Notes under the pieces: generated by a model | What the model saw: the letters and a program-made list of their open reading frames with translations, nothing else | Database searches by the model: none | Told to the model about the DNA's origin: nothing | DNA from: Streptomyces thinghirensis | GTDB lineage: Bacteria; Actinomycetota; Actinomycetia; Streptomycetales; Streptomycetaceae | Direction: 5' to 3' | Assembly (NCBI GenBank): GCA_021502835.1 | Contig: JAKFGP010000010.1 | Span: forward strand, 1 to 40,000 | DNA length: 40,000 nt | Shown: positions 9,694 to 17,937 of the stretch, in pieces | How the letters are laid out: each line of letters begins with the position of its first letter | How positions within the stretch are numbered: position 1 is the first letter of the stretch | Translations under genes and position numbers: made by a program

Positions 9694-10161
9694 GTGGCCC
9701 GACCAACGCGCGGGCGAAAGGCTGGCGGACCTCATCCGAGGTGGTGGTGGCCCAGAAGCTGCAGCGCGGGATTCAAGGACCCGCGGCTCGGCTCGCACGT
9801 ACTATCACGGACACCCGGGTCATGGGTGACCTGCGGGAGGCGACCGTCTTCTACACGGTGTACGGGGACGAGGAGCGCGCGGCCGCGAGCGCCGGCCTGA
9901 GAGCGCCGCGGCATCCTGCGCTCCGAGGTCGGCTAGGCGGCGGGCGTGAAGTTCACGCCACCCTGACCTTCGTCTGGACGCCCTCCCGGAACACCGCCCG
10001 GAACATCGAGGACCTCCTCGACAAGGCGCGGCAGTCCGACGAGAAGGTGCGCAGGCGATCGGAGCGCCGCGCGTACGCCGGTGAGGCGGATGGCCGTACC
10101 GTAAGCCGGACGAGGCCGAGGACGACGCCGGGCCGACGAGACGGACGACACCAAGCAATGA
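9694..10161 (+). CDS. rbfA: 30S ribosome-binding factor RbfA
   Basis: RbfA binds the 16S rRNA 5' domain during late 30S maturation. GTG 9694 follows GGGAG (9681-9685). Reconstructed segments are MADNARAKRLADLIREVVAQ, KLQRGIKDPRLGSHVTITDT, RVMGDLREATVFYTVYGDEE, FTPTLTFVLDALPDTARNIE and DLLDKARQSDEKV, the single KH-like RbfA fold, followed by an acidic tail (DEAEDDAGADETDDTK). The stop TGA 10159-10161 overlaps the truB ATG (ATGA). About 155 residues, with indels near 9698, 9719, 9742, 9771, 9890, 9935 and 10055. Confidence 0.92.
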
Positions 10162-11075
10162 CCGGATGCCACCCCACGCCCGACGGCCTTGTCATCGTCG
10201 ACAAGCCGTCGGGCTTCACTTCGCACGACGTCGTCGCCAAGATGCGGCATCGCCCGCACCCGGCGCGTCGGGCACGCCGGCACGCTCGACCCGATGGCGA
10301 CGGGCGTCCTGGTCCTCGGTGTGGAGCGGGCGACCAAGCCTCGGGCACCTCGCCCTCACCGAGAAGGAGGTCGAGCACGATCAGGCCTGGGCAGACGCAC
10401 ACCTGACCGACGACGCCGAGGGCAGATCACGGGGTCGCAGGACGCTCGAAGGTCACCCGGGACGCCGTCGACGCCGCCGTCGCCAAGCTGGCCCGGCCGT
10501 ACCATGCAGGTGCCGTCCAAGGTCAGCGCCATCAAGATCAAGGGCGTGCGGCCTCGGCTGTGGGCGCCGAGGGCGAGGAGTTCGAGATCCCCGCCCGCCC
10601 CGTCACCGTCTCCTCCTTCGCGGTGGATGACGTCCGGGACGCCGTCGCCGAGGACGGCACCCCGGTACTGACTCCGGTGGTCTCGGTGGTTTGCTCCTCC
10701 GGCACCTATATCCGCGCCCTCGCCCGCGACTCTGGGCGCCGACCTGGGCCGCGGGGGGCCACCTCACGGCCCTGCGCCGCACCCGTGTCGGCCCGTACAA
10801 GCTGGGGGGGGGGGGTGGCCAAGACGCTGGACCAGCCCAGCAGGGGACCTCACCGTCATGCCGATCGCGGACGCGGCCACCGCCGCCTCCCCGCGCTGGA
10901 CGTGGACGCCAAGCGCGCAGGCGCGGTTGCTCACCAACGGTGTGTACGCCTTGGAGATGCCCGACTTCTACCGGGCGCCGGTGCCGTCGCCGTCTTCGAT
11001 CCCGAGGGCTGCCGCCTTCGCGCTCGTGGAGGAGCACAAGGGCAAGGCGAAGAGCCTGGCCATATTTCCGGCTGA
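10158..11075 (+). CDS. truB: tRNA pseudouridine(55) synthase TruB
   Basis: TruB makes pseudouridine-55 in the T-psi-C loop of tRNAs. ATG 10158 overlaps the rbfA stop. It reads DGLVIVDKPSGFTSHDVVAK, then the catalytic motif VGHAGTLDPMATGVLVLGVE with the nucleophile Asp at 10288-10290, MQVPSKVSAIKIKGVR, VVSVVCSSGTYIRALARDLG and the C-terminal PUA-like region (LLTNGV-LEMP, FALVEEHKGKAKSLA), ending TGA 11073-11075. About 300 residues, the normal length. Indels are frequent. A run of 12 G at 10804-10815 replaces the sequence expected for KLDAAKTLDQ. It is the last gene of the translation operon, followed by a strong terminator. Confidence 0.94.
10804..10815 (+). repeat. Run of 12 G inside truB
   Basis: A 12-base homopolymer lies where TruB homologues encode Leu-Asp-Ala-Ala-Lys. 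It is best explained as a collapsed or miscalled stretch in the assembly. Confidence 0.8.
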
Positions 11076-11323: not shown

Positions 11324-14300
11324 ATGGCGTCGCGGAACCGGTCCCGGGAGGCGGCGGGCGGCGGGCAGGACTGCGGTCCCCGGACGGCTCCCGGAGGCGC
11401 GCGGCGGCCGCCTGCCCTGCCGACCGAAGCGCCACGGATCGCGCCCGATGACGCGCTGATCCGGGTCCATGACCTCGCCGGCCGCCCCCGAGGCACCGGT
11501 TTCCTCGCCGACCACCACGGCACGCTGATCACCAGCCACGAAGCGGTCGACGGTTCGTCCTGACTGGAAGGAGCGGCGCCGGGGACCGCCGCCGCCGTGG
11601 CCGCCGCCGACGTGATCTCGCCGCCTGCCCTCGGCCTGGCCTCGTACGCACCGAGGGCCTCGGCGCCGAGCCGCTGCCCGTCGCGGCGCGCGGCAGGTCG
11701 AGGCCGCACGTACGTCCGGACGGCCGCCGGCGGCTGGCGCGCGAGGCCTGGTCCTCGGCGCCACCGACGTCACCTACGCGGCCACCGACCGCTTCCACCT
11801 CCTCGGCGACGCCCTTAGCTGGCGCTCGGCACATCGGGGCGGGACGCGCTGCGGCTGGGCGGCGGCGCGGCCGGCGGACCGGTCCTCGACATCGCGACCG
11901 GCGCGGTCGTCGGCGTCCCCGGCACCGCCCTGGAGTTCCGGACACAGCGACGTCCGGCTTCGCCGTGCCGTTGCTCCCCGTCCCCGGCCCCCTCGCCGAC
12001 CTGCTCGCCGAGAATCGCGGGCGACGGTCCCGGCCTACGGCGCCGACCTCAATCTGGCGGGCGTACTCCGCACTCACGGCGACCTCGGTGGGGCAGGACG
12101 GCCCGCCGGGGGCGGCGGGAGGAGGTGGGCGCGGGGTGAGGGTGGGCGTCGGTGAGGGTGGGTCGCGGATCCGGCTCCGTGTCCGGGTCCAGCTCCGGGT
12201 CCGTCCCGGCTTCGGGTCCGGGTCCGGGTCCGGTCCGGGTCTAGCTTCGGGTCCAGCTCCGGCTCCGGCTTCGTGTCCGGGTCCGGGTCCGGGTCCAGCT
12301 CCGGCCCAGCTTCGTGTCCGTGTCCGTGTCCGTGTCCGGGGTCCGTCCAGCTCCGGGTTCCGGGTTTCGGGTCCGGGTCCGGGTCCAGCTCCGGCTCAGG
12401 TTTCCCGGGTCCGGCTCCCGGTTCCGGCGCCGGCTGATCCGGGTGTCGTGGGGCGGGGTGGGGCCGTGGCACAGGCTGCCCCGCGGATCCGGTCGAACGC
12501 GCGGCTGTGGCACGGGAGTTCGCCGACTTTGCCGTGAGTCGCGCCAGCGTGCTCGGCCTGGTCGGCGCACCCGGCAGCGGCCGTACGACGGAGCTGGCGG
12601 CCCCCGCCCTGCCGCGCCCTGCGCGGAACCGGCGCCCACCTGTGGCTGCGCGGCGCCGATCTTGCGGGACGACGACATGTCGCTGGCGAGACGCAGGACG
12701 CTGGCCTGGGCCGCCCGCATCATCGCCGCCCGGACTCGCTCCTCGCTCCGCCGGCCTCGGCGACATCACCCCGACCGCCTCGCCCACCTCGCCTGCGCGC
12801 CGCCGGCGCCCCTTTGCTGCTCGACGGCCCCGAGGAGATGCCGCCGGTCCTGGCCCACCGCTCCCCGAGTGGACGGAGGGCACGGTGACGTGGCTGCGGG
12901 ACACGGGGTCGCGGCTCGTGGTGCATGCCGGGCGGAGTACTGGGAGCGGGGCGGAGTTCCCGCGACGCTGTTGTACGGGGCGGTGGCGGGGGCGCCGGCG
13001 TCCGGATCGGTTGCCGGCGTGTGCCGCGGCCGCCCGGCTCGGCTGCGGGGAGTGGCCGTCCGGGCAGGTCGTGGGCGTGCCGTCGCCTCGGGTGATCGCT
13101 GCCCGAGAGCCGTGGCCCGGGTCGGCGGGCGGTGGCGGGCGCCTCGGGGCGGGCGGTGGAGTGCCGCTGTCCGAGCGGCCTGTGGAGAGTCGTCTGCCGT
13201 GCCGGTCAGCGGTGCGTCGTTGCCGGCGTCGGGCGGTGAGGCGCCTCGCTCGGGACGCCCTCGAAGCGGCGCTGGAGGAGTCGACGGCAGGGCTGGCGGC
13301 AGAGCGCCCACGTCGAAGGCCGTTTATCGCGAACTGAACCGCCGTTCGGAGCGGTTGTCGGCACAGCGCCGAGGCAGACGGCGCCGACTGCCGACAGGAC
13401 GACCGCGGGCAGGACGAACTCAGGCAGGACGCCTCCCGATGGCACAGCGGCTCGCCCGGTTCGGTCCTAGTACGCCGAGCCCCGGTCCGAAGCCCCGGCG
13501 CAGGGATCCCGCTCCTGCGTCCGTCTCGGCGATCTGGGCGACACGAGGCCTGGGAGGCGCGCACGCTACCGCCTACCGGAGGGCGCTCTCGCGGACCCGG
13601 ACGGCCGGCACCCTCACCCCTCCGCCTGCTCGCGGAGGTGTACGACGCCTCCTGCTCCCCGCCACCCGCCCGCGTCGAGCGGCACGCGGCCTTCGCGGCT
13701 CACCGCACCTGACGTGCCTGCGCGTCGCCAACGCCTGGCCGCGGCGAACGGCCTGCACGGTACCGCCGTACGACGACCTGCGCAAAGGTCTCCGGACAGG
13801 TCCACGAGGCCGCCCGGCGTAGTCTCGGCCTGGCCAGGGCGAGCTGGACCGGAGTCGTTCGAGGCGCTGTTCTCAGTTCGCCCGCTCCGGCTCGGCGGCG
13901 GCACCGGCTGGGCAACGGCCGTACTCGGCGAGGGCCTTCGTACCCGCGGGCAGCGGCTACCGGGCTTTCGCCCACGAGGAGGTCGCCGCATCGATCCAGG
14001 GCACGCACCTCGACCTGGACGAGGCTCCCTGCGCGCCTCGTCCACCACCGCGGCACCCCGCACGCCCCCCACACCCACACCCTCCCGTGCCGCGCCACCG
14101 CATCGCCCGTGGTCGAGGCCCTGCTGGGTTCCCTCGCCCGCCAGTACGGCATCCCCCAACCTGCGCTGACTCGAAGAGCTGGTGCACGTGCACTGGACGC
14201 CGACCCGCACCCTGGTGGGCCGCCCGGCTGCTCGCCGAGGTGCTGACGCGGCGTGCCCGACGCCACGCCGTACACGGAGGTGCTGCGGCTGCTCGCCGAC

Positions 14301-15650
14301 GGCATCGTGGAGCGGAGCGGCGAAGGGCGCGGCCGCGCCGGGGAGTTCGGCCCCCTTCTGGACGGCCGCGCGATCGCCGGAGGCCACGCGCCTGGACCTG
14401 CTGCGCCGCCTGTCTCGCCGGATTGCCCCGGCACGAGCCGGGCCCCCGCTGTTCGACACCGTCGCCGGACGGCTCGCCGCCGATCCGACGGCCGTGCAAC
14501 CGCTCCTCGTCCGCTGGTTCGACGACGAACGGCCGCTGCCCGCGACCCCGCACGCCACCGTCGCGACGGCCGCACAGGCGCTGCTGCACACTCACCGCAC
14601 CGCGCCCGGGCGGCCTGGACGGCTCACCGAGGACTCGTCGAGGCGCACCCTGGCGGGGTCGACGAACTGCTCGCTGTCCTGGCCGAGGAGGGCTGTCCCC
14701 TCGCCTGCCGCGCCGTCGACAGGGCGCGCGACGAGCGGCCCGCCCGGCGGACGGCGGCGGTGACCCATGGCCTGCGCACCGCAACCGCACCCACGCACCG
14801 GTGCCGACCGCACCCTGCTCCGCCACGCCGCCTGGTCCTGCTCGCCTACCCCGCCGACAGCGCCTGCGCGGCGGCGCGCTCGCCTGCTCGCTGTCCAGGA
14901 CCCGCAGCCGGGACCGTCACCGCGGGCGCTGAGCCACCCCGCGGCGGGCGACCCGTACCTCCCGCCGAGCGCGGTGGCCGCCGCCCTGCCGACCCATCCG
15001 GTACCTGTCCTCGACGCCTTCCGGGCCAGGCTGCGCGGGCCGCACGCCGGAGAGGCGCTGCGGCGGCTCGCCGACGCCACCACCCCCGCGCTCGCCCGCC
15101 GGGTGGCCGCACTACCTGGGGAGGCTGTGGTGGAACGCCCGAGACCGCCGGGCACGTGGCCGCGTACGTCGACCGGCGCCTCGACCGGGACCCCGCGGCC
15201 GCGCCGTACTCCACCCCTGGTCACCGGCCTGCTCGACGACGGTCCCTAACCGTGCGCGCCGCGCTCGCCGGTGTCCTCGCCGGCGACGGCCCTCCAGGCG
15301 ACGGCGCCCCCGGCCGCGCCCGCCCCGCCGCGAGTTGCGCGAGCACCTCCTGGCCCACGAGCAGGACCCCGCCGTCCTTGACGCGCTGCTGCACGCGGTC
15401 GCCTTCGGTGCGGTGGCGACACCTCGCCCGCCCTCGTCCACCGCACCGGTCCTCCTTTCCTCGTCCGGCACCCCGGACGGCGCCACCCGCTTCGGGATCA
15501 AGGCCTGGTCGACCTGGCCCGCCACCTCCCGGGTTCGCCACCCGGGTCACCGGCTGGCTGGCCGACGAGCTCCCAGGATCTGGGCGGCGCTGGTGGGCCC
15601 CAGCGCACGCCCACGATCGAGCAACCTGGCGGGCGCCCGTCCCGGCGTGA
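11324..15650 (+). CDS. Large protein: degenerate trypsin-like domain, P-loop NTPase, long C-terminal repeats
   Basis: ATG 11324 (MASRNRSREAAGGG, AGAGG 7 nt upstream) to TGA 15648-15650, about 1,440 residues. Residues about 50-230 look like a trypsin-like protease (GTGFLADHHGTLITSHEAVD; GLALVRTEGLG; GGAAGGPVLDIATGAVVGV), but the triad positions read Glu (or shifted His), Gly and Ala. A repeat-encoded linker follows (12160-12440). The P-loop is GAPGSGRTTEL (12564-12596), with Arg for the usual Lys; the Walker B-like LLLDGPEEMPPVLAH is near 12815-12860, and a sensor-like LVV-CRAEYWE is near 12907. A winged-helix-like YRAFAHEEVA (near 13960-13990) leads into Ala/Leu/Arg-rich helical repeats (LLADGIVE, LLAADPTAVQPLLVRWFDDE, PALARRVAAL). 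The layout resembles STAND/NACHT NTPases with an N-terminal effector. Frames are badly broken throughout. Function unknown; it lies between truB and ribF. Confidence 0.7.
12160..12440 (+). repeat. Imperfect hexanucleotide repeat (gtccgg-type) within the large gene
   Basis: About 280 bp of near-tandem GTCCGG, GTCCAG and CTCCGG units. Depending on frame it encodes Gly-Ser, Pro-Gly/Ala or Val-Arg dipeptides; the protein context favours a flexible Gly/Ser/Pro linker between protease-like and NTPase domains. Copy number is probably unstable and may be misassembled. Confidence 0.75.
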
Positions 15651-15778
15651 GCCGGATCCGGCGCACCGGGGGCGTGCACCCTGGTCACAAAGGATGCCGA
15701 TGCGGGCGGAGCGGACGGCACGGCACCCTTAGACCCGCGGTAAGAGGCACCACGGAAACCACCAAGGAGCAGACAATA

Positions 15779-16774
15779 GTGCAGCGCTGGCGTGGCTTGG
15801 AGGACATCCCCCGAGGACTGGGGACGCAGCGTCGTCACCATCGGCTCCTACGCCGGACGCGTCCACCGTGGCACCAGCTGATCATCAAGCACGCGGTGGA
15901 CCGCGCCCGTGAACTGGGCGTCCCTGCCGTCGTCGTCACCCTTCGACCTGCACCCCAGCGAGGTCGTCCGCCCCGCAGCCACCTGCCGCTGCTCGCCCCG
16001 CACCACCGCCGCGCCGAACTGATGGCGGAACTGGGCGGACGCAGTTGATCCTCCCCTTCACCAAGGAGTTCTCAGCGTCCGCTGCCGACTTCGTGGTCAA
16101 GGTCCTGGTCGACCGGTTGCGCGCCAAGGCGGTCGTCGTAGGCCCCACCCTCCGCTTCGGCCACAAGGCCGGCGTGGGAACGTCGAGTTCCTCATCGAGC
16201 AGGGCACGGTCTACGACTTCGGTGAGCAGTCGAGGTCGTCGACCGTATGTGACCGGTGACGCGGGCGCGGCGAACCCCTTCCCGACCCTGACCTGCCGCC
16301 TGGTCGCCGAGGGCGACGTCGCCGGCGCCGCGGAGATCCTGGGCCGCCCGCACCGCGTCGAGGAGTCGTCGTCCGGGGCGCCCAGCGCGGCCGTGATGGG
16401 CTTCCACGGCAACGTCGAGATCTCCCTGCTGTTCGCCATCCCGGCCGACGGCGTCTACGCCGGCTGGCTGCACGCCCAGGGCGAGGCGATGCCGGCCGCG
16501 ATCTCCGTCGGCACCAACCTGCAGTTCGAGGGCACCGAGCGCACGGCGGAGGCGGCCATCGACCGCGTCGGCCTCGACCTGTACGGCCTGCACGTCGTTG
16601 TGGACTCGGCCTTCGCACGGGGCCAGGCGAAGTTCGAGACGCTGGAGGCGCTGCTCGTCCAGATGGGCGACGACGTCGACAAGCGCCGAGATCATCGCGG
16701 CGGACGACACCCGGCAACCGGACGGCCACGCCGACACCGTCGGCGGGTATACCGTCGCCGCCACCCCGCGGTAG
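15779..16774 (+). CDS. ribF: Bifunctional riboflavin kinase/FAD synthetase
   Basis: RibF converts riboflavin to FMN, then FAD. GTG 15779 follows AAGGAG (15764-15769): MQRWRGLEDIPEDWGRSVV. The N-terminal nucleotidyltransferase half shows TIGSYDGVHRGHQLIIKHAV (reconstructed; indels at 15860-15875), HPSEVVRP-like, PLLAPHHRRAELMAELG and FTKEFSA. The C-terminal riboflavin kinase half shows RLVAEGDVAGAAEILGRPHR, IPADGVYAGWLHAQGEAMPA, AISVGTNLQFEGTERT and VGLDLYGLHV, and ends GYTVAATPR before TAG 16772-16774. About 330 residues. In the kinase half, the stretch at 16370-16440 fits the family poorly (the ELGFPTAN region reads AVMGFHGNVE), so indels are likely there. It faces the ABC genes convergently; no strong hairpin is seen in the 166 bp between them. 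Confidence 0.9.
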
Positions 16775-16940: not shown

Positions 16941-17937
16941 TCAGGCCCAGTGGTAGGCGACCTGCGCCGTGTCGCCGCCGGTCAGGATCTCCAGGTCCCG
17001 ATGGCGGCACGCGTCGGCGACCCCGGCGCGTTCCGGCTCGCCACCGGCCAGGATCTGGCGACGTGGAGTGGCAGCCGCGGACATGCGACGGGTCGGAGGT
17101 TCACCGGAGAGCACGACCGCGCCGGGCGCCTCCGCAGGACGGACAGCAGGGCCTTGGCGTACGGATGCCGGGGCGCCGCTCAGCACCTTGCTCCACCGCA
17201 CCTGTCTCGACGATCCGGCCCAGGTACATCACCGCGACCCGTCCGCGATGTTCCAGGCCAGCCCCAGGATCGTGGGTCACCACCAGCGCGGACAGGCCCA
17301 GCTCGGCATGCGCAGCCGGCAGCAGCAGGGCGAGGATCTCGCGCACCGGACGCAGCCGAGAGGAGGCCACCGGTTCGTCGGCGACGAGGAGTTCCGGTTC
17401 CAGGACCAGGGCGCCCGCGATGACGATCTTCCCGCTGGCGCTGGCCGCCGGACAGCTCGTGCGGGTAACGGCGGAAGAAGCGTCCCGGCGCTTGTGCCCG
17501 GCACGGGACAGCGCCTCGGCGACCGCCGTCCGCTCCTCGTTCCCCGCGTGACTGTGGATGTGCAGGGCCCTCGGCGACGATGTCGTACACCGTGTGCCGC
17601 GGGTTCAGTGAGCCGCTCGGGTCCTGGAGGACCAGTTGGGCCCCCTGCGGTACGCCTTCAGCGCGCGGCCGGAGCGGGCGAGGCGCCGTCGAAGGTGACG
17701 CGGCCGGCGGTCGGCGGGACCAGCCGAGCAGGCAGCGGGCGAGTGTGGTCTTCCCGCAGCCCGACTCGCCGACCAGCGCGACGATCTCGCCCCGCCCGAT
17801 GTCGAGATCGACCCCGTCCACGGCCGGGCGGCGGGCGCCGCCGCCGACCGGGGAAGGCGACCTCCAATCCCCTGAACGCTCAACAGCGAAGGTGCGGTGC
17901 CCGTCGTCGGGGTGCTCGTCGTCGGAGTGCTCGTCAT
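16941..17937 (-). CDS. Oligopeptide-type ABC transporter ATP-binding protein (DppF/OppF-like)
   Basis: ATG 17937 (MTSTPTTSTPTTGTAPSLLS; GAGGAG 9 nt upstream) to TGA 16943-16941, about 330 residues. Walker A is GESGCGKTT in LVGESGCGKTTLARCLLG, the ABC signature is ELSGGQRQR, and Walker B is PELLVADEPVAS. VVTHD and RVAVMYLGRIVETG follow. A C-terminal oligopeptide/dipeptide domain with a Cys-rich end (DACRHRDLEI) matches the DppF/OppF subfamily. Indels lie near 17850, 17690, 17570, 17400 and 17060. It is the last gene of a leftward five-gene operon, 13 bp after the preceding stop. It energises peptide or related solute uptake with its partner ATPase. Confidence 0.88.

Follow-up and report, generated by a model that had tools for sequence, protein, structure and literature searches.

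An NLR-like protein with a non-canonical protease domain and an arginine P-loop between truB and ribF in Streptomycetaceae

The stretch of DNA analysed here (the window) comprises 40,000 nucleotides from Streptomyces thinghirensis, positions 1 to 40,000 of contig JAKFGP010000010.1. One large gene was located at 11324..15650, with limits mapped onto the frame of the nearest relative (locus L021); it encodes, in order, a pseudoprotease, a linker, a NACHT-type NTPase, a winged-helix/HD region, and a HEAT-like solenoid. Upstream lies truB (10158..11072; tRNA pseudouridine synthase B, placed by motifs and L021 mapping), and downstream lies ribF (15736..16719; riboflavin kinase/FAD synthetase, FAD_syn E 7e-6, slightly below the cut-off). 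All three genes, and the features of the large gene described below, are on the plus strand. The motifs quoted in a first-pass annotation of the window were found in place, and the housekeeping position it had described was borne out by flanking motifs across relatives: truB and ribF motifs were direct neighbours in 28/30 loci, and of the top 80 among 531 named relatives, 79 showed the truB motif and all 80 the ribF motif.

No single open frame runs through 11324-15650; the open reading frames (ORFs) of the window are interrupted there by stops and frame switches, and both neighbours are frame-broken too. The nearest genome (G001; 47% of sampled words in common with the window) carries at the same place, as L021, an intact frame of 1406 amino acids with the same motifs and residues; across the 4055 bases aligned, its identity to the window gene is 0.91. 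Gap runs whose length is not a multiple of three numbered 78/4055 bases in the gene, 17/892 in truB, and 16/970 in ribF. Because the density of such indels is about equal in the two housekeeping genes, the broken frame is, judged from these alignments, sequencing error and not decay. Nor is the protein family a product of chance, since 2527 database proteins matched one orthologue at E <= 1e-3 (7985 candidates scored).

Residues were counted in two sets: 241 proteins (that of G001 and the top 120 matches to each of two queries) and 102 aligned rows from 101 loci (G001 entered twice), the latter restricted to frames spanning the head and reaching at least model position 600, with duplicates removed. 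Changes are given as the minimum required by a quickly built tree with 101 rows, in which some long branches meet, and are thus approximate.

The N-terminal head (11447..12102) is, by profile alignment and predicted structure, an HtrA/S1C fold without the normal catalytic triad. Trypsin_2 scored above the Pfam cut-off in four of nine relatives and below it in four (L021 was unlisted), and a profile of 26 heads retrieved HtrA-type proteases from the PDB (HhoA, E 8e-9); the predicted fold is likewise a chymotrypsin-like double barrel of HtrA type. In five printed profile alignments, three of them to HhoA constructs, TsHeavdg lies ungapped over TNAHVVDG-type stretches, and the fixed histidine therefore falls one place early, with glutamate on the catalytic His column. 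In the window, these residues are the Glu of TSHEAVDG (11531-11554; codon 11540-11542), the Gly of ALGLALVR in the Asp column (11627-11649), and the Ala of GGAAGGPVLD in the Ser column (11861-11890; codon 11870-11872).

The pseudoprotease assignment of the first-pass annotation stood: histidine was found at the canonical column in 0/241 proteins and 0/102 rows, and with it no S1C triad in the canonical places. That column held E in 83 rows, Q in 17, R in 1, and D in 1. One residue earlier, histidine was present in 99/102 rows (G, L, and R once each), and the His-Glu pair occurred in 241/241 proteins. The statement that all three triad residues had been replaced was correct for the window, but Asp and Ser are kept in some orthologues. 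The Asp column read G 174, D 59, A 4, N 4 among the proteins and G 73, D 23, N 4, A 2 among the rows; the Ser column read A 154, S 45, T 42 and A 49, S 21, V 13, I 7, T 5, P 5, R 1, C 1, respectively. Orthologues with His, Asp, and Ser together, which would have spoken against a pseudoprotease, occurred only nominally, in 5/102 rows and 3/241 proteins, the histidine being displaced in each; a Wenjunlia orthologue (P0122, the same protein as L099) is an example. On the tree, the displaced His changed 3 times, the next residue 5, the Asp column 15, and the Ser column 21. We infer that the canonical histidine was lost first and that Asp and Ser drifted later. By a simple count over seven pairs of relatives, the ratio of non-synonymous to synonymous change (dN/dS) was 0.16-0.37 in the head and ranged over 0.16-0.42 when every domain is included; on these ratios the head is under purifying selection and therefore retained for some function. 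Most named members of the two 120-row lists carry the annotation 'serine protease' or 'trypsin-like peptidase', a misleading label for this family. A second histidine, in DRFH, was present in 240/241 proteins and 86/102 rows. In L048 the displaced His is also gone (VVGGDALDG) and the P-loop Arg is kept.

A low-complexity linker follows the head (12103..12485, from mapping and repeat analysis; 10-59 residues in 27 loci). It contains a GGGTCC-type tandem array at 12160-12433, with period 6, about 44 copies, and 70% matches. Beyond it, orthologue alignment and predicted fold place a NACHT-type nucleotide-binding domain (NBD; 12486..12979), with Walker A GAPGSGRTT (12564-12590), Walker B LLLLDGPEEM (12811-12840), and a sensor-1-like CRAEYWE (12918-12947). 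After a second, variable linker (12980..13515; 9-205 residues in 27 loci) comes the HD1/winged-helix/HD2 region (13516..14081), with a GxP-like HPL (13606-13631) and the FxH motif of the winged-helix domain (WHD; 13961-13993). A HEAT/ARM-like alpha solenoid (14082..15622; median 541 residues, range 489-670, in 27 loci) occupies the chain end, as the helical repeats of the first-pass annotation had indicated; a conserved MPM...HGSLRPA tail ends L025, L026, L028, L029, and L030 and is absent from the window's clade. From alignment and model, then, the head is followed by an NBD-HD1-WHD-HD2 module of NACHT type, and the STAND/NACHT layout proposed earlier is upheld by matches of the predicted module to NLR structures.

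The Walker A lysine is arginine in the window, as had been noted, and in every relative read; none of these had the canonical GxxGxGK[ST], and the tree required no change at this position. P-loop Thr/Ser was kept in 102/102 rows, the Walker B Asp and both Glu in 102/102, and the GxP-like Pro in 101/102. The description of the switch as degenerate was not supported: among core motifs only the P-loop lysine is altered, and the WHD His is mostly retained. The replacements in the two domains behave oppositely, the protease columns drifting while the P-loop Arg is constant in all relatives read. In the loci of genus g131 (L101, L106-L108, L110, L113-L115, L117, L118, L120), the Ser region of the head is shortened to PAG[AS]P and the sensor-1-like CRPE becomes CGEE, CGDE, or CGDQ, with the P-loop Arg kept. 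Elsewhere in G001 (contig C40, 473696-480171; L239, L254), three strong NACHT matches are clustered, possibly a defence cluster; the two that were fetched, L239 and L254, have Lys P-loops. Downstream of ribF in the window, a minus-strand ORF at 17180-17821 with GESGCGKTT resembles an ABC transporter ATPase.

Matches to the gene were found in 262/297 Streptomycetaceae genomes (about 88%), in 11/17 genera. At least two of these (G353 and G361) gave weak local hits only, and truB adjoins ribF in both. In a class-wide sample, 27/296 genomes matched: 25/28 listed same-genus genomes and two weak local hits elsewhere. In 17 of the 35 unmatched family genomes plus G353 and G361, truB motifs lay within 1.5 kb of ribF in 18/19, a distance too short for the gene; outside the family, the same proximity was seen in 2/4 genomes. 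From these neighbourhoods, the gene was probably gained in Streptomycetaceae at the truB-ribF junction, with occasional later losses or, for some genera, no gain at all. Mean pairwise identities (351 pairs among 27 of 30 loci; in the other three, the gene or one of its neighbours escaped the script's patterns) were 0.74 for truB, 0.81 for ribF, 0.59 for the head, 0.60 for the NTPase, 0.63 for the WHD, 0.56 for the solenoid, and 0.46 and 0.41 for the linkers. At domain resolution, these identities reveal no hypervariable sensor part.

The component parts are of known kinds. Animal NLRs (NLRC4, NLRP3, NOD2) and bacterial bNACHT proteins have a P-loop Lys where this protein has Arg; they also differ from it in its HtrA-type pseudoprotease head, its HEAT-like solenoid, and a Pfam NACHT score below the cut-off. 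The pseudoprotease MamO of magnetotactic bacteria keeps H116 and D149, has Thr for Ser, and binds metal (PMC4794232); the protein described here differs in having a STAND NTPase joined on. The iSTAND/VMAP ternary systems (PMC7159879) likewise combine a trypsin-like domain with a STAND-type NTPase and place inactive trypsin domains in regulatory positions. There, however, MoxR and vWA genes flank, whereas the direct neighbours of this gene are, by motif, truB and ribF in 28/30 loci; these systems are also reported to be almost wholly absent from actinobacteria (PMC7159879). LypABC, a CARD-NLR-like system of Caulobacter, shares NLR-like immune parts and trypsin-like domains and has been proposed as co-opted for a host-linked process, but consists of three genes, needs its peptidase Ser, has a Lys P-loop in LypB, and is patchily distributed (PMC13236601). 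In the papers searched, no description was found of an HtrA pseudoprotease joined to an Arg-P-loop NACHT at a family-wide core locus.

The reading we favour, which has a little under an even chance of being right, is that the gene encodes an NLR-like switch protein, specific to Streptomycetaceae and passed on vertically, with a closed-to-open mechanism. The solenoid would keep the protein closed, with nucleotide bound, until a partner or stress signal opens the module. The Arg P-loop would be expected to bind nucleotide but hydrolyse it poorly; the module would thus stay open and oligomerise, and the gathered heads could serve as an adaptor for peptides or proteins, not a cutter. Since most sampled family members keep the gene, it is probably a resident regulator rather than a transient phage-defence gene, and the fixed locus with fairly even evolution along the chain suggests an endogenous signal.

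Several observations weigh against this reading. The resemblance to NLRs comes from VIA-align applied to the predicted module, and Foldseek whole-chain TM-scores to the listed NLRs are low (0.19-0.40). Pfam NACHT PF05729 remained below its cut-off in the scanned proteins (best 25.2 versus 26.7 bits, in P0120, which the database's own listing credits with this family). The WHD His is present in 90/102 rows and missing from 12/102, and the sensor-1-like Arg varies (79/102 rows, 9 changes on the tree). The gene is dispensable, given that 35/297 sampled family genomes have no match; it also evolves faster than its neighbours (mean identity 56-63%, versus 74% for truB and 81% for ribF), and the solenoid, by a slight difference the least conserved folded domain, fits a conflict role too.

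One alternative is an anti-phage immune receptor, bNACHT- or Avs-like, fixed in the core genome, with the inactive head serving to recruit or decoy a protease of phage or host. The NLR-type architecture, the predicted fold, and the evolutionary rates are consistent with it, as are the description of bacterial conflict systems in which inactive trypsin domains take the place of effectors (PMC7159879) and the proposal that bNACHT25 guards a host process (PMC12169576). We consider it rather unlikely: the best PADLOC-DB match among 10 proteins was weak (OloA, E 0.0039, 14.5 bits), one orthologue searched had no plasmid match, the gene is a single locus across most of the sampled family, and solenoid identity, at 56%, is close to the 59-63% of the remaining folded domains. 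These grounds also weaken the Avs-type role in defence or as a decoy that was first proposed.

A pure scaffold, with NTPase and protease both dead and the protein merely holding partners together, would account for the loss of the P-loop Lys in every relative read and for replacement of all three triad columns in most rows. It is, in our judgement, unlikely, as a dead site is expected to drift in the manner of the protease Asp and Ser columns, whereas Walker B, the P-loop Thr/Ser, and the GxP-like Pro are held nearly without exception. Continued proteolysis in some lineages, with the displaced His reaching the catalytic position, draws on the constancy of that His and on the few orthologues that retain Asp and Ser beside it. 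It is very improbable: Asp and Ser change often while the displaced His stays, the modelled strand ends at residue 38 with a helix starting at His39, and the catalytic role through a shifted alignment that the first-pass annotation had allowed for the TSHE histidine is contradicted by ungapped profile alignments with unchanged T-to-VDG spacing. Pseudogene decay, or sequencing error that removed the catalytic residues, would suit the broken window frame but is refuted by intact relatives, the nearest of which carries the same residues, by about equal breakage of the neighbours, and by dN/dS < 0.43 in all domains of the seven pairs.

Most known bacterial NLR-like proteins are phage defences of patchy distribution. 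Here, across a multicellular bacterial family, most of the members sampled have an NLR-like protein at one and the same locus. It may, more tentatively than the switch mechanism itself, be a core-genome NLR whose switch was permanently retuned by the fixed Lys-to-Arg replacement and whose head became a non-cutting binder, an endogenous regulator or scaffold domesticated for normal physiology. With this gene, the possibility that a STAND switch is retuned for housekeeping work can be put to a direct test.
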